The notes beneath the pieces were generated by a model that saw only the letters and a list, made by a program, of their open reading frames with translations, made no database searches and had not been told where the DNA came from. A stretch of DNA of 64,000 nt, taken from NCBI GenBank assembly GCA_030041375.1, contig JASHOA010000051.1, positions 62,001-126,000 of the forward strand. The letters are read 5' to 3'. The stretch's first letter is position 1. Every line of letters begins with the position of its first letter. The position numbers were made by a program, and so were the translations under genes. The DNA is from Acetobacteraceae bacterium. GTDB lineage: Bacteria; Pseudomonadota; Alphaproteobacteria; Acetobacterales; Acetobacteraceae. Of the stretch, positions 29,508-37,905 are shown piece after piece.

Positions 29508-30662
29508 AGCGGGGCCATCCCCTCGCCCGCAGAACGAAGCTGCCGTATCGGCCAGGATGTCGGCCAGCGCTTCGACGCTCGCCTCCTCCGCCCACTCCTC
29601 GGCCGCATGCGCGCCCTCGCCGTCTGCGCCGAACATCACTGCCGGAATGCCGGCGCCGGCGAGAATGGCGCAATCCGTCCAGAACGGCTCGGCCCGCAAC
29701 GCGGGCGCCTTGCCCAGCCTGGCGGTCGCTGCGGCGCGCAACGCCTGCACCACGGGCGCGTCCTCGCCGATTTCGAATGGAAAACGAACGAGGCCGGGCA
29801 GGATTTCCGCGCGGAAGTTTTGGTCTCGCGCTGCAATTGCATCGACGATCGCTTGCAACTCGGCAGTGACGCTCGTTCCCGTTTCGCCCGGCACCGTGCG
29901 GCGCTCGAGATGAATGCGACACTCGGCGGGATAGCTCGAAAGTTCCTGGCCGCCCTTGATCAGCGAGGCGTGCACCGAGCCGGCGCCTAGCCGCGGGTGC
30001 GTCGGATTTACGCGCAGCCGCCGATCCCATTCTCCCAGCGCGACCAGGAATTCTCCGGCCTTCGTGATGGCATCCACGCCGAGGTCCGGGCGCGATCCAT
30101 GCGCGGCCTTCCCTTCCACCACGACCTCGAACCACGCAAAGCCCTTGTGCGCGACCGTCAGCTCCAGGTGGCTCGGCTCGGTGACGATGGCGGCATCGGC
30201 GCGAAAACGCCGGGCAACTTCTTCCGTGCCGAACGAGGCATGTTCCTCGTCGGCAACGCAGGCCACCAGCAGATCTCCGGGGAGTTTTGCCCGTTTGCTG
30301 CGGGCCGCTGCGACCATCATCGCTGCCACGCCCGATTTCATGTCGTATGCGCCGCGCCCATAGAGCCTGCCGTCGCGGCGCTCGGCCGAGAGGGGATCGC
30401 CTTCGTAGGTGGCGAGTGTGACGGTATCGTAATGGCCATTGAGCATGAGCGCACGGCCGCCGCCGGTGCCGCGCGCGATGCCGACGATGCTCGGCCGGCC
30501 CGGCCGCGCCTCCAGCCGATGCACCTCGAAGCCGCGCGCGGCAAGCCACGCTTGGCAGAAATCAGCGATCGCGGCCTCGCCCGCGCTGCCCGGCACGAGG
30601 TCCGGATTGACGGAGGGAATCCGGACAAGCTGGGCGAGTAACTCGGTGGCCGATTCGGGCAT
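29475..30662 (-). CDS. M20-family metallopeptidase (ArgE/DapE-like deacylase)
   Basis: A zinc-dependent amidohydrolase of 395 residues. Zinc-site motifs are ALMLNGHYDTV (His, Asp), GRGAYDMKSGVAAMM (bridging Asp), CVADEEHASFGTEEV (catalytic Glu and ligand Glu) and AIVTEPSHLELTVAHKG. The dimerisation lid spans about 180-290. ArgE, DapE and carboxypeptidase G2 all share these motifs, so the substrate is open. Neither arginine nor diaminopimelate genes are nearby. Confidence 0.88.
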   Translation of the reverse strand: MPESATELLAQLVRIPSVNPDLVPGSAGEAAIADFCQAWLAARGFEVHRLEARPGRPSIVGIARGTGGGRALMLNGHYDTVTLATYEGDPLSAERRDGRLYGRGAYDMKSGVAAMMVAAARSKRAKLPGDLLVACVADEEHASFGTEEVARRFRADAAIVTEPSHLELTVAHKGFAWFEVVVEGKAAHGSRPDLGVDAITKAGEFLVALGEWDRRLRVNPTHPRLGAGSVHASLIKGGQELSSYPAECRIHLERRTVPGETGTSVTAELQAIVDAIAARDQNFRAEILPGLVRFPFEIGEDAPVVQALRAAATARLGKAPALRAEPFWTDCAILAGAGIPAVMFGADGEGAHAAEEWAEEASVEALADILADTAASFCGRGDGPASAGEASARSR

Positions 30663-30708
30663 GCGGGTTCTCCGGCTCACGTTTGGCGTGTTCTTACGAT
30701 CGGGCGAA

Positions 30709-33700
30709 TCACGCCGCCGCCTGGCCGGCGGCGCAATGGTCGAGCCAAGCAACGATGTCCGAGACCTTATACGCCAGGAGATAATCCCAGCGGCCGAACT
30801 CGTCGGTCGCGTTGATGGCGGCGCACCAGCGGATGGCCGCGGCCTTTTTGACCTCGGCCAGGTTCTCCCAATCCGCACCTTTGACCTCGGCGATCAGGTA
30901 GCGTTCGTCCGGGCCGGCAAGGCGGGCAACGAAGTCCGGGAGGTATTCGCGGGGTTGGCCATTGTGGAGGTAGGGAATCGTGAAGTTGAGGCCGAAGTTT
31001 CTGATATGCGCGGCAACCGCCGGGTGATGGTCGAGGTGGTAGGAAGCGCTTTGCTCCCAGGTCATGGTGTCGAAAACGGCGAGATTCACGTGGCTGCGAG
31101 CCACCTCACGGACCTCGCGGTTCGTGAAAACCGAGATATCCGCGGTCGCGGACGGTCGGTCGCGGTCGATGTCGGGCACCTCCGGCACCTCGCCCGCGTC
31201 GATGTCGGGGCGGATAGCGGCAAGAAGGCGTTCGATAATCCAGCCATAATAGGGCGAGAGGAACGCGTCGATCTGCTCAGCGGGTGGCGGGGCCGTGACC
31301 TTTTCGGCGATGTAGCGCTCGACGATCCTGAGGACCTGCGGGAAAAGGACATGGGGCGGGGCTTCACAGGTCGGCTGCCTGCAGTAGTGAAGGGTCAGAT
31401 CCGCAGCCATCTGGAAGGAAAGCTGCTGGGCACGATGGCGCTCGCGGAATTCCGCGAGCGTTGCTCTGTGCGAGCCGCCGGGCGCGTTGATCGAGGGGCG
31501 GCCCTGATTCAGCATGGCGGCAAGCTCGGAATCCGGCGGCAGGCGCATCGGATCGAGCACGAGACCGGCGACGGCGCTCCAATCGGAGACGCCGATCCTG
31601 TTCCTCACCGCGATCGAGTAGCCGAGTACGCGGGGAACCGTGATCGCATATCTGGCCTTTTGTGGGACGGCGAAGATACGGCGCTCGGGAGGCTTCGGCC
31701 TTTTCGTGCCCGCGGTTGCCTTGAAGGGAACGATTTCGAAGGGCACGCCAAAAACCTTCGCGACCTCTTCTTCGAGTTTTCCGCCCGCAACAATGTCATA
31801 AGAGCGGCGGCGGAGGGCACGGCCGACCACCTGCTCGCACAGAAGCTGGCTCTGGAAGGGCCGGAGGCCAACGACGTGGGAAACGGTGTTGCAATCCCAC
31901 CCTTCGGTCAGCATGCCGACGGAGACGATAGAGCGCACGTCGCGGCCGGGCGGATGGAGCGGCCGAGCGAGTTTCGCCGCGAGTTCCGCGAACCCTTCCG
32001 GGTAGATGGGGCGGCCCTGGGAATCCTCGGGCCAATTCTCTCGGCCGACCGTGTCGAGCGTGAAGCGCATCCAGGCGTTTTCGTCGGATTTCGGATTGCC
32101 GCTGTCGGTCTCCAGGACCACGCCGGTATCGACGCGGATGGTGTTGGTCTCGCCCGCGCGGTTGCGTAGCTCGGGGATGTTGAGGGCCGACACACCGGGT
32201 GGGCGGATGTCTTCGGCGATCCATTCGAAGAGCGTCCTCGCGATGCGCTTGTTCTTGGCGACAAGGATGAAGACGGGCGGACGCGCGTCATCGCTTTCGC
32301 TCAGCAGCCTGGCGCGCTCGGATTGCCAGAGACTCGCCATGATGGTGATGGGCGTGTGCGCCCATTTGAGGATCGCCTCGGGCTTGGGGCTGCCGCGCCT
32401 GCTGCCGCGCTCGGCGGCGGTGAGCTTGGGCAGAATCCATTGCCAGATGTTGAAGTACGAAGGGATGAGCTGGCCGGAGCTGTCTTGTGCCACCAGTTGC
32501 GGCACCTTGACGAGGCCGCTTTCGATGGCGTCCGTGAGGCCGAAATCGGAGATGGTCCAGGGGAAGACGGTGTTGGTCGCGCCGCCCATGCGGCCGAGAT
32601 AGTAGGGCGTCGCGGAGAGATCGATGCATTGGTTGATCCCGCGGATGCGCTGGATGCGGTCGAGCCCGTCGATCCAGACCGTGGCTTCCTGGCGGTCGGC
32701 CTCCCGCTCCTCTTTTTCGTCTTCGTCGGCGGCTTCGCCGTTGTCGGACTCGTCTTGCTGAGCCTCGCGCGGGGGAATGCGATAGGCGTGGTGGGCTTCG
32801 TCGTTGATGACCAGGATATTCTGCCCTCCGCCACGGCCGAGCACGCGGTTGACGAGGGCGGTGTCACTTTCGATCCAGCGGGTGCTTTCGACGAGAGCCT
32901 TGCGGACGCTGCCGTCCTCGGCCTTGTCTTCCGCGATGACTGCGAGCTCGCCCGCGGCGAGCGATGCGGCATAGGATTCGGGGGTGAAATAGCGGCTGCC
33001 ACGGGCGGTGGTGTCGGCGGGGCCGATCCTGATCCACTCCTTCCTCGTTTCCGGCTGGCCGGCGCGGACGACGCGCGCACCGGCGCTGCCAGCCGGTTGC
33101 TGCGGTTCGAGGACGTGCCAGTTCCTGATGATCACACGGCCACGGGCGAGGTCCGCGCGAAGCGCGGGCGGGACGAGATCGCGCGTGACGTAAATGCTGG
33201 CCTCGCCGCAGGCGGGATCGAGTTCGGAGAGGCGGGAGCGAATCGTGACATTGGGACAGAGAATGAGGACGGTGTCGGAAAAGCGGGCGTCGCTGCGATC
33301 GGCTGCCTTGTTGAGGATCGACCAGGCGGCGAGCATGGCGGCGATGGTGCTTTTGCCGGTGCCGGTGGCGAGCTTGCAGCAGTGGCGGCGGAAGCCGGCG
33401 TAGCCGGCGGCCTTTCGTTGCTCACCCGGATCGTCATCGGGGATGGCGAGACCGGCGAGAAAATCCGGCCGCGCCTCGGTCAAGAAGATGATGGTCTCGG
33501 CAGCTTCGCGCTGGGCAAAGAAGAGGCGCGGGCTGCGGCCATCGCGTTCCCACCAGGCGATGAGGTCGGCAGTGGTGCGGGTCGCACCGGGGCGGCCGGC
33601 ACGGCGCCATTCCTCGATCCGGTCTCGGATTGCGTTGACGAGGGGCATTTCGCGCCAGACGCCGCGGCTGCCGGCGGCAGCCTGAATGTTCCTGTCGGGG

Positions 33701-33858
33701 TCGCGGTACCAATACCCGGCGCGGCGGCGGCCAGGGCGTTCTTCCGGCGGCAGGCCCTCTTCGATCTGCAAATGCCAGTGGCGGGCAGGCGGATCGTAGG
33801 GGCCGTTCAGGATCGGCTCGGGGACCTCGAAACCGGAGGCGGCAGCACCTTCGCTCAT
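30709..33858 (-). CDS. Type III restriction-like helicase-nuclease (Res subunit)
   Basis: About 1049 residues. A Q-like motif (FFAQREA, 113-119) is followed by Walker A CKLATGTGKS (161-170), DEAH box VINDEAHHAY (351-360), motif III DLSATPYY (413-420) and motif VI QVVGRALRRR. These are the SF2 helicase motifs of type III Res and related enzymes. An acidic insertion (about 368-390) sits between the DEAH box and motif III. The C-terminal PD-(D/E)xK nuclease reads PDF (974-976) and EVK (991-993), in YLPDFVARLAG...YLIAEVKG. Its ATG overlaps the stop of the methyltransferase gene (ATGA), so the two form one coupled system. Confidence 0.92.
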   Translation of the reverse strand: MSEGAAASGFEVPEPILNGPYDPPARHWHLQIEEGLPPEERPGRRRAGYWYRDPDRNIQAAAGSRGVWREMPLVNAIRDRIEEWRRAGRPGATRTTADLIAWWERDGRSPRLFFAQREAAETIIFLTEARPDFLAGLAIPDDDPGEQRKAAGYAGFRRHCCKLATGTGKSTIAAMLAAWSILNKAADRSDARFSDTVLILCPNVTIRSRLSELDPACGEASIYVTRDLVPPALRADLARGRVIIRNWHVLEPQQPAGSAGARVVRAGQPETRKEWIRIGPADTTARGSRYFTPESYAASLAAGELAVIAEDKAEDGSVRKALVESTRWIESDTALVNRVLGRGGGQNILVINDEAHHAYRIPPREAQQDESDNGEAADEDEKEEREADRQEATVWIDGLDRIQRIRGINQCIDLSATPYYLGRMGGATNTVFPWTISDFGLTDAIESGLVKVPQLVAQDSSGQLIPSYFNIWQWILPKLTAAERGSRRGSPKPEAILKWAHTPITIMASLWQSERARLLSESDDARPPVFILVAKNKRIARTLFEWIAEDIRPPGVSALNIPELRNRAGETNTIRVDTGVVLETDSGNPKSDENAWMRFTLDTVGRENWPEDSQGRPIYPEGFAELAAKLARPLHPPGRDVRSIVSVGMLTEGWDCNTVSHVVGLRPFQSQLLCEQVVGRALRRRSYDIVAGGKLEEEVAKVFGVPFEIVPFKATAGTKRPKPPERRIFAVPQKARYAITVPRVLGYSIAVRNRIGVSDWSAVAGLVLDPMRLPPDSELAAMLNQGRPSINAPGGSHRATLAEFRERHRAQQLSFQMAADLTLHYCRQPTCEAPPHVLFPQVLRIVERYIAEKVTAPPPAEQIDAFLSPYYGWIIERLLAAIRPDIDAGEVPEVPDIDRDRPSATADISVFTNREVREVARSHVNLAVFDTMTWEQSASYHLDHHPAVAAHIRNFGLNFTIPYLHNGQPREYLPDFVARLAGPDERYLIAEVKGADWENLAEVKKAAAIRWCAAINATDEFGRWDYLLAYKVSDIVAWLDHCAAGQAAA

Positions 33859-36596
33859 TGCGCGCGGCCGAGGCGGCGGAGGACGGGAAGCTCGTTGCCG
33901 CGATCGTCGAGCACCTTGACCATGATGTCGGTGCCGATGGCAGCGGCGAAGGGCGCGGAGACGGCGCCGCGGAGATGCTCCCACACGGTTTCGTCATGCG
34001 TCGCCTTGAGCGCCTTGCGAAGATTGTCCCAGGCGGAAGTGCGGGGAAAGAAAACCTGGCGGGCATGGAAGGTCATGCCGTCGTAGTGCGTATCGAGCAT
34101 CCAGCAGGGTACTTCCTCGCCGCCCAGGTGATCGGTCTTCATGGTGACGGGATCGAAGCTGTCGAAGCCGCGCAGGCGGACCTGCCAGAACGGCGTGCCG
34201 TCTTCCGCGTTCCGGTCGAGGCGCGCGATCTCGATGTCGGGCTGGCCGCAGACCGCGAAAATCTGGCTGCTCCGCTGATTCTTCAGAAGATCACCCATCT
34301 GGAGGTCCATGGTGGCGGAGGCGTAGAGGGCGGGCAGGCCGAGCACGTCCTCGCCGGCGTCGATGGCGGCGCGCGCCTCCGGCGTGATGGCGAAGCCAAT
34401 GACATAAAGCGCGCCATGGCCCTTGACGTTGGCCTCCTTGGCGGCATCGAGCACCGATTTTTCGCTGATCGGGCCGTTCGCCGGGCCGATCAGGATGGCG
34501 ACGGTACGGCCGCCCAGGGTGTCGTCGTCCAGCATCGCTTCGGCGGAGAGCGAGAGGCTGCGGGCGGGACGGCGGATGTTGCGAAGCGTGATCGTGCGAT
34601 TGCCGGGCAGGGAAAAGCGGGGCGAGCGCTTCAGAACCTCGATCATGCGTGCAATATGATCGGAGGGTTCGTCGGCCGGCGCCGGTTCTGCGCCGTCGAG
34701 CGCGGCCGGGGTAGGCAGCGTCGCTTCGAGGGTGAAGGGGCCGGAGATGCGGGTGATGTCATCGTCCTGATCGGGACGATCGACGAGGATTTCCTCGGCG
34801 GGCGGCTCGTCGTTGGCAATCGATTTGAGAGTGATGTGCGGCACGATGCCGCCGATTTCCTCGCCCTTGCGGTTCTGCCGGCGGGAATAGACGAAGCCGC
34901 CGGCGGGGCCGGCCTCCTCGTTGCGCAGGCGGTACCAGGGAAAGGTCGCTGTGAGGAGGCGCTGGCGAGTCAGCGCAAGTGGCACGCGCGAGGTGTCGAT
35001 GGTGATCCAGCGCCGTCCCCATTGCTCGGCGACGTAGGCCGTCGTGCCGGAGCCGCAGGTCGGATCGAGCACAAGATCGCCGGGATCGGTGGTCATCAGG
35101 ATGCAACGCTCGATGACCTTTTCCGCCGTCTGCACAGCGTATAGCTTTTCTTCTCCCCATCCTCTGGCGCCAGTGTCGTCCCAGAAGGCAACGAGTGGCG
35201 AGACCGGGAAGTCCTGGAAGTAGCGAATGTACCGAAGCGTGTCGCCCTGACGGATGACGCGAGATTTTGCGATCAGGCGGCTCATCCCATCGATCCCGGT
35301 CTTCCAGTACCCGCGCCTCGGCCTGAACGTGACGCCATCAAATTCGACTGGAAAATTGCCTGGCGGACGATTACTCGTCAGATTGTCGGGTATGAAAAAG
35401 CGGTACCCAGGCGGTAGAAGCGACACGTCGTCGCTTTCAGCCCTTGTCAACCTTCTCCGGGTGCCGTTGGGCAGTTCGACCCAGGAGTATTCGCCCGAAC
35501 CCGTCGATCCTCTATCCTTGAGTAGGTAGAGCTGTCGGTATTTCGTGCGCGTAGCGTCCCGCGCGTACCAAAGGATGTAGTCCGCCACGCCCGCTAGTAG
35601 TTCGCTGGATTGCCCCGCGGTCTTCTTGAATGGGATTGCGGCAACGACGTTGCGCACGCCAAATACTTCGTCCATCAGCTCGCGCACATGGTGCAGGTTT
35701 TCATCGCTGATCTGGACAAAAATGCTGCCGCTGGGCGTCAGAAGATCACGCGCGAGCACGAGGCGATCGCGAAGATAGGTCAGATAAGAGTGCAGGCCGA
35801 GCTGCCAGGTGTCGCGGTAGGCCTGGACCATTTCGGGTTCGCGCGTGAGGTCGGAATCGTCGCCGTCCCTGACATCGCGCTTGCGGACGAAAGGCTGAAA
35901 ATTCGAGCCGAATTTCACGCCGTAGGGCGGGTCGATGTAGATCATCTGCACCTGCCCGCCGAGGCCCTCGTAGCGCAGCAAGGAGTTCATGACGACGAGG
36001 CTGTCGCCGAGGATGAGGCGATTCACCCAGCGGTCGCGGTATTCGTAGGCGCGGATATTCTCGGTGAGCGGCCGTTGCGGATCGCCGAAGAGATCGAACA
36101 TGCTGGCCTGATCGGCAAATTTTTCGTGCGCGCGCAGGCTTTCGATGATCGCCTTGGTGGAGAGGCGCTCGTGGACGAAGAGCGGCAGGCTCGGCACCTC
36201 GAAGCTGAGGCGCTCGGCCTTGCCGGTCCAGTCCAGGAAGGGTGCTTGCATCCGCTTCAGCGAGGCGAGCGCATCCTGAAGGCCGGCGATCTGGAGAAGG
36301 GGCGCGCCGTCGGCGCCCAACAGGGTCCGGCGCTCGGCGAAGAGGTGCGGGGCAGGCAGCCTGGCGGCGTCTTCGATCGCCTGGAGGAGAAAGCTGGCCA
36401 TTTCGCGCGCCGGGTTGGTGTCCCAGTCGAGAGCGGGGGAGAGGCTCGAGTCATAGCGGTATTTTGACGGCGGCTTCTTCGTGGTGAAGCGCGGTGCGAC
36501 GCCGATCGGAGGGCGGGCGACGGCGTCGCTGGCGGTGTGGCTGTAGTTCCGGGCGGCTGGACGCGTCGGCTTAGGCCGACTTGGAGATTTCGCCAT
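33855..36596 (-). CDS. Adenine DNA methyltransferase (Mod subunit, type III-like)
   Basis: About 913 residues. The catalytic motif IV DPPYG (222-226, in MIYIDPPYGVKFGSNFQPF) precedes the AdoMet motif I DPTCGSGTT (511-519). This is the beta-class order of type III Mod enzymes, and DPPY indicates N6-adenine. The long stretch between them (about 320-500) is the presumed target-recognition region. About 370 residues follow motif I, more than in classical Mod, including a Rossmann-like segment with VAILIGPANGPISEKSV. It acts with the helicase-nuclease downstream. ATG 36596 is used; the frame before it is not conserved-looking. Confidence 0.92.
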   Translation of the reverse strand: MAKSPSRPKPTRPAARNYSHTASDAVARPPIGVAPRFTTKKPPSKYRYDSSLSPALDWDTNPAREMASFLLQAIEDAARLPAPHLFAERRTLLGADGAPLLQIAGLQDALASLKRMQAPFLDWTGKAERLSFEVPSLPLFVHERLSTKAIIESLRAHEKFADQASMFDLFGDPQRPLTENIRAYEYRDRWVNRLILGDSLVVMNSLLRYEGLGGQVQMIYIDPPYGVKFGSNFQPFVRKRDVRDGDDSDLTREPEMVQAYRDTWQLGLHSYLTYLRDRLVLARDLLTPSGSIFVQISDENLHHVRELMDEVFGVRNVVAAIPFKKTAGQSSELLAGVADYILWYARDATRTKYRQLYLLKDRGSTGSGEYSWVELPNGTRRRLTRAESDDVSLLPPGYRFFIPDNLTSNRPPGNFPVEFDGVTFRPRRGYWKTGIDGMSRLIAKSRVIRQGDTLRYIRYFQDFPVSPLVAFWDDTGARGWGEEKLYAVQTAEKVIERCILMTTDPGDLVLDPTCGSGTTAYVAEQWGRRWITIDTSRVPLALTRQRLLTATFPWYRLRNEEAGPAGGFVYSRRQNRKGEEIGGIVPHITLKSIANDEPPAEEILVDRPDQDDDITRISGPFTLEATLPTPAALDGAEPAPADEPSDHIARMIEVLKRSPRFSLPGNRTITLRNIRRPARSLSLSAEAMLDDDTLGGRTVAILIGPANGPISEKSVLDAAKEANVKGHGALYVIGFAITPEARAAIDAGEDVLGLPALYASATMDLQMGDLLKNQRSSQIFAVCGQPDIEIARLDRNAEDGTPFWQVRLRGFDSFDPVTMKTDHLGGEEVPCWMLDTHYDGMTFHARQVFFPRTSAWDNLRKALKATHDETVWEHLRGAVSAPFAAAIGTDIMVKVLDDRGNELPVLRRLGRAQ

Positions 36597-36679
36597 GGAA
36601 TCCTGGGCAATTTGTCCCGACGCCCGACATTCGCGCGAGCGTCCCGATTTCGCAAGAAGCCGAAGGCAAAGGATGGGTT

Positions 36680-36726
36680 CCAAGGGCTGGCCCTTGGCGG
36701 GGGTTGCGAGGGGGCGGAGCCCCCTC
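36680..36726. terminator. Double hairpin between acyl-CoA dehydrogenase and Mod genes
   Basis: Two perfect stems stand next to each other. CCAAGGGC / GCCCTTGG (36680-36697) has a TG loop. GAGGGGGC / GCCCCCTC (36708-36726) has a GGA loop and is followed on the plus strand by GTCTTTTG. Both nearby genes read leftwards, so on that strand the T tract is missing. The pair probably ends the tetR-ior-acd transcript or is a dispersed intergenic hairpin. The gap 36597-36768 holds no gene. Confidence 0.5.
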
Positions 36727-36768
36727 GTCTTTTGCGCCGGGCGCGGATGGCTGAGGCGGCGCTCGGGG

Positions 36769-37905
36769 TTAGAGCAGGCGTTGCAGGATCATCTTCTGCA
36801 CGTCCGACGTGCCTTCGTAGATTTTGCAGACGCGCACGTCGCGCAGGATCCGCTCCAGCGGATAGTCGGCGAGGTAGCCATAGCCGCCGAGGGTTTGCAG
36901 CGCGTCGCTGCAGATCTGCTCGGCCGCCTCGGAGGCGAACAGCTTGGCCATGCAGGCCGCCTCCAGGGCCGGCTTGCCATCCCGCTTCAGCCGCGCGGCG
37001 AGGAGGGTGAGCTGGCGCGCCGCTTCGAGCCGGGTCTTCGCCTCCGCCAGCCGGAATCCCACTGCCTGGTGCTCGATGATCGGCTTGCCGAAGCTCTTTC
37101 GCTCCTTGGCGTAGCCGATCGCGTACTCGAGCGCGGCGCGCGCCATGCCGACGCTTTGCGCGGCCACGCCGATGCGGCCGGATTCCAGGGTGGAAAGCGC
37201 CATGCGATAGCCCTCGCCCTCGGCCCCGATTCGCTGCTCGTCCGGCACCTCCATCGCATTGAAGGCGAGCTGGCAGGTGTCGGACGCCTTCTGCCCGAGC
37301 TTTTCCTCGAGCTTGGCCACCTTGAAACCCGGCGTGTCAGGACTGACGACGAAGCAGGAGATGCCGTGCTTGCCGGCCGCCGGATCGGTGACCGCGAACA
37401 TCACGACCGCGCCGGCGACGCGGGCGTTCGAGATGAACTGCTTGCTGCCGTCGATGAGGTAGTACCCGTTGCGCCGCTTCGCGCGGGTGCGGATGGCCGC
37501 GGCGTCAGAGCCGGTGCCGGGTTCGGTGAGCGCGAAGGAGCCGACCATCCGGCCGCTGGCGAGCGGGCGCAGCCAGCGCTCTTTCTGTGCCGCGGTGCCG
37601 TACCGTTCGAGGATCAGGCAGGTCGGCGCATTGTGCACGGTGATCATGGTGGAGACGGAACCATCACCGGCCGCGATCTCCTCGAGCGCGAGCGCGTAGG
37701 TCACTTCATCGAGCCCGGCCCCGCCCCACTCGGGGTCGATCGTGGCGCCGAACAGCCCAAGCTCGCCAAGCTCGCGGATCAGTTCGGGCTCGATCGCACG
37801 CGCCTTCTCTCGTGCCGCGGCACCCGGCGCGAGCCTCTCGTGCGCGAAGCGGCGGACCGTTTCGATGACCGCCAGATCCGCTTCCGGGGGAGTCTGTTCA
37901 AGCAT
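36769..37905 (-). CDS. Acyl-CoA dehydrogenase
   Basis: A flavoprotein of 378 residues that introduces an alpha,beta double bond into an acyl-CoA. FAD/substrate motifs are GSFALTEPGTGSDAAAIRTRAKR and YYLIDGSKQFISNARVAG, with GYAKERKSFGKPIIEHQAVGF and ALQTLGGYGYLADYPLERILRDVRVCKIYEGTSDVQKMIL near the end. The Glu of YEGTS is the catalytic base of short/medium-chain members. The acyl group is not predictable. It is the last gene of tetR - indolepyruvate oxidoreductase - acd, so its substrate may come from amino acid-derived acyl-CoA. Confidence 0.94.
   Translation of the reverse strand: MLEQTPPEADLAVIETVRRFAHERLAPGAAAREKARAIEPELIRELGELGLFGATIDPEWGGAGLDEVTYALALEEIAAGDGSVSTMITVHNAPTCLILERYGTAAQKERWLRPLASGRMVGSFALTEPGTGSDAAAIRTRAKRRNGYYLIDGSKQFISNARVAGAVVMFAVTDPAAGKHGISCFVVSPDTPGFKVAKLEEKLGQKASDTCQLAFNAMEVPDEQRIGAEGEGYRMALSTLESGRIGVAAQSVGMARAALEYAIGYAKERKSFGKPIIEHQAVGFRLAEAKTRLEAARQLTLLAARLKRDGKPALEAACMAKLFASEAAEQICSDALQTLGGYGYLADYPLERILRDVRVCKIYEGTSDVQKMILQRLL

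Follow-up and report, generated by a model that had tools for sequence, protein, structure and literature searches.

A Type III-like restriction-modification gene pair of the BPTD_3080 lineage at a variable chromosomal site of an Acetobacteraceae bacterium

Introduction

Among the described systems that can be set beside the locus analyzed here are the m4C Type III restriction-modification systems of Murray 2021 (PMC8259958), in which study four of the six characterized systems have two genes, and two systems are reported where Mod needed Res for methylation (PMC8259958). The same study lists Bpe564I from Bordetella pertussis (AGCCGCC, with m4C as the predicted mark) among the Type III systems whose host is predicted to have just one of them (PMC8259958). 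Their two-gene Mod/Res layout and beta-class Mod recur in a gene pair of an Acetobacteraceae bacterium, which lies in a stretch of 64,000 nucleotides (contig JASHOA010000051.1, positions 62,001 to 126,000), hereinafter the window. With EcoP15I and EcoP1 the window Mod has both its core fold and its motif order in common, and the EcoP1 Res, as read from its translation, shows the same order as the window Res, namely the helicase followed by a PD-(D/E)XK domain. Type III enzymes methylate one strand of an asymmetric site, and they cleave about 25-27 bp from it in a reaction that requires two inverted sites and ATP.

A further counterpart is encoded by the Mycobacterium avium plasmid pS2b: its Mod (983 aa) is 56.4% identical to the window Mod, covering 100% of it, its Res is 52.2% identical to the window Res with 99% covered, and its mod and res also overlap by 4 bases. 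The M. avium locus differs in having a PLD-like gene and another gene upstream, neither of which is present in the window. A link to ARMADA or DISARM, prompted by the helicase and PLD-like neighbors of some relatives, was considered and set aside; in the available part of PMC12458937, the methyltransferase is PglX-like, unlike the window Mod. The window pair is one more member of a kind of system that is already known, being named and widespread, and apparently little studied. The single locus is ordinary; what recommends the lineage to attention is that it is common and yet our literature search under the family name BPTD_3080 found no paper, that its Res is weakly matched by the PADLOC models, and that its Mod carries a C-terminal domain with no convincing relative among Pfam families or PDB sequences.

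Organization of the gene pair

The first-pass annotation of this DNA had read a two-gene pair with an ATGA overlap at 30709-36596, and this was borne out: mod runs from an ATG at 36596 to a TGA ending at 33855, res starts with the ATG at 33858, and, in the minus-strand translation of 30709-36596, both reading frames are uninterrupted with their motifs intact (Table 1). The matches to known families are far above chance, with E 7.5e-275 for Res (a curated NCBIfam family) and E 7.7e-155 for Mod (a PADLOC model). The pair is flanked on the same strand by an upstream gene at 36769-37905 and by one downstream gene, which we take to code for an acyl-CoA dehydrogenase and an M20-type peptidase, respectively; no further system gene was seen adjoining the pair in the window. 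The 4-base overlap would couple the translation of Res to that of Mod.

Table 1. Features of the mod-res locus, in window coordinates
Feature	Position	Strand	Description
mod	33855..36596	(-)	913-aa beta-class DNA amino-methyltransferase, Type III kind
res	30709..33858	(-)	1049-aa SF2 helicase + PD-(D/E)XK nuclease, BPTD_3080 family
ATGA overlap, mod stop / res start	33855..33858	(-)	
Mod catalytic half 1, residues 191-318, motif IV DPPYG 222-226	35643..36026	(-)	Pfam PF01555
Candidate target-recognition domain, Mod residues 319-470	35187..35642	(-)	identity pattern
Mod catalytic half 2, residues 471-556, motif I DPTCGSGT	34929..35186	(-)	
Family-specific Mod C-terminal domain, residues ~635-913	33858..34694	(-)	predicted alpha/beta
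Res Walker A ATGTGKST, residues 164-171	33346..33369	(-)	
Res DEAH box, residues 353-356	32791..32802	(-)	
Acidic stretch after motif II, Res residues ~366-392	32683..32763	(-)	
Res nuclease motif PDF...EVK, residues 974-993	30880..30939	(-)	
Stretch differing from sister species	30683..36767	.	flanks 94.8% and 95.8% identical

The pair itself, its motifs, the fold of Mod in the predicted model, a recognition-like region, recurrent pairing in relatives and the variable occupancy of the site together make it very probable that the BPTD_3080 lineage is represented here by a complete Type III-like restriction-modification system, one that is probably active. From these we infer that the enzymes are active, that Mod and Res form a complex, that Res cleaves DNA, that the Mod extension has a role of its own and that the pair serves in defense. 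Mod would recognize a short target by means of the variable domain at its center, methylate an exocyclic amino group (of A or C) and bring Res to the target site; at an unmethylated site, the ATP-driven SF2 motor of Res would be switched on and its C-terminal PD-(D/E)XK domain would then cut, such that foreign DNA is cleaved and that of the host is spared.

A sigma-70 scan found no such promoter for the pair, with 0.8 expected by chance. Just upstream of mod (36671-36726) lies a GC-rich hairpin with an adjacent repeat-like sequence, to which a congener (G002) shows a 33-base match (L091:130-162) beside a res remnant described below. Phase variation of mod via simple repeats was also considered and discarded: a scan of 30500-37000 shows three weak arrays only, of which two are inside res and the third (33864-33882) is where mod ends.

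Mod is a beta-class methyltransferase with a recognition-like central region

For the comparisons that follow, 44 Mods and 40 Res were hand-picked as near full-length proteins from the related loci and the window, the Res of L018 being one that ends early. The motif order of the beta class, with DPPYG (222-226) preceding DPTCGSGT (511-518), is as had been read in the initial annotation, and D222, P223, P224 and Y225 are invariant in all 44 aligned Mods. Pfam N6_N4_Mtase (PF01555) matches residues 216-536 (E 1.2e-29), and the PADLOC MTase_III model PDLC03632 (983 positions) matches the whole protein with 515.4 bits, whereas none of the NCBIfam Type III Mod models match it, the best NCBIfam score being that of the CcrM model, with 58.3 bits against a cut-off of 830.

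A structural model of Mod was obtained using AlphaFold2 from the 44 sequences (mean pLDDT 72.1, pTM 0.71, with 188 residues below 50). The first ~634 residues of this model align with the solved Type III Mods 6k0w_C (Z 26.1, rmsd 3.6, 279 aligned) and 7dsu_B (Z 24.2, rmsd 3.5, 276 aligned) and with the EcoP15I Mod 4zcf_B (Z 25.1, rmsd 9.0, 341 aligned). EcoP15I Mod also ranks first in Foldseek (E 9.0e-21), with whole-chain TM-scores that are low (0.28 and 0.40). As modeled, the Mod core has the fold of the solved Type III Mods; because Type II beta-class enzymes follow closely (the Type II-like CcrM, 6pbd_B, with Z 24.1), such a core does not by itself single out Type III enzymes.

The two catalytic halves and the region between them differ in how they diverge. 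When mean identities of the window Mod were taken against 7 close relatives and against the other 36 aligned Mods, catalytic half 1 gave 0.84 and 0.70, respectively, half 2 gave 0.76 and 0.69, and the C-terminal part (691-913) gave 0.50 and 0.33. The 152 residues between the halves (319-470) gave 0.38 and 0.35; being nearly equally diverged from close and distant relatives, they behave as a changing target-recognition domain would, and on this indirect sign, a pattern of conservation, they are a candidate for one.

As to the mark itself, it is possible that the system is the same and that its protective modification is one-strand m4C rather than m6A, an alternative to which we give substantial weight while not quite preferring it. 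Beta-class Mods make either mark, and the DPPY motif, which fits both, is not diagnostic. The Res family NF046055 is named after the locus tag BPTD_3080, presumably one of B. pertussis, so that the founding member may be the Bpe564I system, the predicted m4C Type III system of that species.

The C-terminal extension of Mod is a family-wide trait

The long tail that the first-pass annotation had noted after motif I is real, although it is longer than the ~370 residues given there, with 394 residues following GSGTT. This value lies at the lower side of the range among the 44 aligned Mods (385-528, median 470.5). The match to EcoP15I Mod ends at residue 538 of the 644 of that protein, corresponding to window residue 634 of 913; hence, ~106 residues follow in the EcoP15I Mod and ~279 in the window Mod. 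In the structural model this part is predicted to be an ordered alpha/beta region, with pLDDT by blocks mostly at 70-88.

The annotation had seen in this tail a reason to suspect a distinct subfamily, and had set the comparison of the Mod C-terminus with described families as the check on that idea. The comparison finds the extension to be ordinary for the family: it is present in all 44 Mods, and the C-terminal parts of all 44, scanned alone, match PDLC03632, with the window part giving 58 bits over positions 763-977 of 983 (positions taken for the window only). Moreover, the partner Res belongs to the curated NCBIfam family NF046055, and with the extension being family-wide, no new subfamily is called for. 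What can be said for one is that the extension lacks a convincing relative, as Pfam matches to the C-terminal part start at E 0.029 and are each limited to 1-2 of the 44 members, and a profile search of PDB sequences gave none better than E 0.083. Weighing these, we regard it as most improbable that the Mod extension sets a new subfamily apart, and the extension as a novelty in its own right was ruled out by the same 44 of 44 counts. Accordingly, the Type III-like Mod/Res assignment of the annotation stands, on the Mod fold, on the motor and nuclease end of Res and on the different occupancy of the site in a sister species, while its suggestion of a new subfamily falls; judged from the aligned sequences, the long Mod tail is normal for its own family.

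Within the Type III-like system we favor, the most likely role of the C-terminal ~280 residues would be the docking of Res or the assembly of a Mod dimer, and they would stand in for the shorter C-terminal part of the EcoP15I Mod.

Res couples an SF2 motor to a PD-(D/E)XK nuclease

The motif content that had earlier been read in Res is upheld in all its parts. The SF2 helicase motifs are present as ATGTGKS (164-170), DEAH (353-356), SAT (415-417) and QVVGRALRR (676-684), and the 40 aligned Res show little or no variation in Walker A, DEAH, SAT and motif VI. An acidic insertion is found in the translation at about 366-392, after motif II; its sequence is variable, yet it is acidic in several close relatives. 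The nuclease end, PDF...EVK at 974-993, is conserved, with the P and D of PD...ExK present in 40 of the 40 aligned Res, the E in 39 and the K in 38. A regulatory methyltransferase with a dead Res is in our estimation highly unlikely, given that the window Res keeps Walker A, DEAH, motif VI and PD...EVK intact, that these are near-invariant in the 40 aligned Res and that neither gene is interrupted.

By family, Res is a member of NF046055 (BPTD_3080 family restriction endonuclease), which it matches at 914.5 bits, above the cut-off of 800, over residues 13-1040 and profile positions 2-967 of 970. No PADLOC model matches it well, the best REase_III hit giving 27.2 bits with a best stretch of 46 residues. 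Against EcoP1 Res, here a single sequence, which makes the comparison a weaker one, the profile of the Res family aligns in hhalign only locally, over 49 columns around motif VI (probability 85.3%); in this the lineage differs from the EcoP1/EcoP15 type. A PDB sequence search with the window Res matched no solved Type III Res, and EcoP15I Res is absent from the best 50 fold matches listed for it. The structural model of Res (mean pLDDT 81.6) shows an SF2 motor whose best fold matches are to RadD (8h5y_A, Z 17.7, rmsd 3.7, 319 aligned), ahead of numerous further helicases with Z 13-15, and EcoR124I HsdR and LlaBIII appear among its Foldseek matches.

Thus, the Res of the BPTD_3080 lineage shares the layout of Type III Res, whereas the weak sequence match to the latter and RadD as the best fold mean that it could work differently from the classical Type III enzymes. 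In particular, it could be a true DNA translocase in the manner of the Type I and ISP enzymes, with a RadD/HsdR-like motor joined to a Type III-like Mod, rather than an EcoP15I-like sliding switch. The RadD fold, the presence of EcoR124I HsdR and LlaBIII among the matches and the local resemblance to EcoP1 Res point this way; nevertheless, SF2 motors resemble one another, as the many helicases in the fold list illustrate, and both the gene layout and Mod are Type III-like, and for these reasons we consider a translocating Res unlikely, if worth keeping in view.

Distribution and possible spread

We fetched 118 loci because they matched Mod or Res; their origins overlap and some are near-copies (L127 and L128, L143 and L144). 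Both genes lie on one strand in 94 of them, and 24 show one partner only; many of the latter break off where a contig or locus ends. L091 is a remnant. In L040, 6 kb after and 2 kb before Mod lack a Res match.

Plasmids are well represented: 214 plasmid records match Mod, 37 of them covering at least 80%, and 42 match Res, 36 of them covering at least 80%, and each of the 30 records listed for Mod recurs among the 40 (of 42) listed for Res. Among the matches listed, many of the plasmid Res carry the annotation BPTD_3080 family restriction endonuclease, and three are labeled Type III. In genomes, Res exceeding the NF046055 cut-off was found in 22 of 385 sampled from the class of the window and in 27 of 398 sampled from its phylum (the samples overlap in part, and each contains the genome of the window), and in none of 14 control genomes.

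A quick tree of Res places the window with a genome of the same family and a Reyranella-labeled metagenome-assembled genome (support 100); the next branch is the Mycobacterium avium plasmid (98), within 13 rows from several phyla (99). The tree fits horizontal spread without proving it, since several rows are metagenome bins. An origin from phages was considered and rejected, as at E 1e-5 no Res match turned up among 50,697 annotated phage records, although a scan of IMG/VR gave 69 loci encoding Mod relatives, which may be prophages or host DNA.

One relative stands apart in its architecture. The Mod relative of a Microcystis metagenome-assembled genome (L019:2982-6584) is 1200 aa long owing to a ~290-residue in-frame insert inside motif I, which starts with Cys, ends with HN before a Cys and contains a DUF559 domain. 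No intein model matched the insert; by these sequence features it resembles an intein, here within a methyltransferase of the Type III-like kind.

The chromosomal site is variable between sister species

In the nearest sister genome the flanking proteins are 98% and 95% identical, with one TGA inside the second match, and the DNA identity is 95.8% up to window position 36768 on one side and 94.8% up to 30682 on the other. Between these limits, the sister species (G001, L087:2893-3575) has, in place of mod-res, a Fic/Doc gene accompanied by an antitoxin-like gene of the ribbon-helix-helix type. The site is, therefore, variable between sister species. The congener G002 has a res remnant on another contig, near the contig start (L091:164-382), which is 79% identical over residues 904-951 and is probably the trace of a lost copy; it also holds a distant full-length Res relative.

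The edges of the insertion show no target-site duplication, the longest shared word in the stretches compared being 8 bases. Whether the pair is compositionally foreign is not clear either way: its GC3 (0.80 for mod and 0.81 for res) is neighbor-like, falling within the 0.78-0.88 of five neighbors, while its total GC (0.640 and 0.657) is below the 0.675-0.694 of the neighbors, in a comparison where gene limits were set by hand and the start of one neighbor was off.

The mod-res junction in relatives

Relatives show either a Mod-Res or a Res-Mod order, and the two genes are often set apart. A gap of more than 150 bases separates them in 24 of 77 pairs that are full-length by span, comprising 8 of the 45 with Mod first and 16 of the 32 with Res first; these figures, obtained from ORF ends and BLAST-estimated starts, count gaps and do not establish a real gene in each. 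The 24 exclude one locus (L108), whose gap measures 150 and in which no ORF was found. In the window the interval is empty.

When 17 proteins encoded in such intervals, some from loci outside the 77, were scanned with Pfam, the matches included RecF/OLD-like AAA, GmrSD_N, DUF3800, DUF4268 (below cut-off), DUF2971, NYN, HepT-like, nucleotidyltransferase, Gp49 (which we take to be RelE-like), DUF1828/1829, DUF5131, AIPR, PIN, HicA and BRO-N; 2 of the 17 had no Pfam match. A narrow literature search, which included the available part of PMC12707154, found no description of accessory genes between mod and res. Examples of intervals filled by toxin-antitoxin or other defense-type genes are L028:1106-2770, L106:9568-11457, L099:6452-6844 and L116:5898-6347, and GmrSD-like (DUF262) genes recur in the res-mod intervals of Res-first loci (L157, L164, L177, L179, L106 and L107).

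A more speculative reading, which we hold to be rather improbable, is that the window pair is the bare core of a modular defense lineage that combines a Mod with a C-terminal docking domain of its own, a Res with a RadD-like motor and a mod-res junction that serves as a recurrent slot for payloads. The candidate payloads would be of the toxin-antitoxin, GmrSD-type, PIN/NYN, HepT-like, RecF/OLD-like ATPase and AIPR types (some of them from outside the 77 pairs); these would fire together with restriction or after its failure, and the C-terminal domain of Mod would be the platform coupling the modification state to the payload.

Further genes of defense systems are seen outside the junction. On two Rhizobiaceae plasmids (L031:1792-7938 and L034:3804-9950), the pair is directly downstream of genes with PADLOC matches to ZacA, ZacB and ZacC; the genes of L031 were scanned, and those of L034 are ~98-99% identical to them. 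The Zac genes were considered as a standard part of the system and rejected as such: within the limited flanks available, relatives of the three Shinella proteins occur in 2 of the 118 loci, both on Rhizobiaceae plasmids, and for this reason we take them to be neighbors in a defense cluster.
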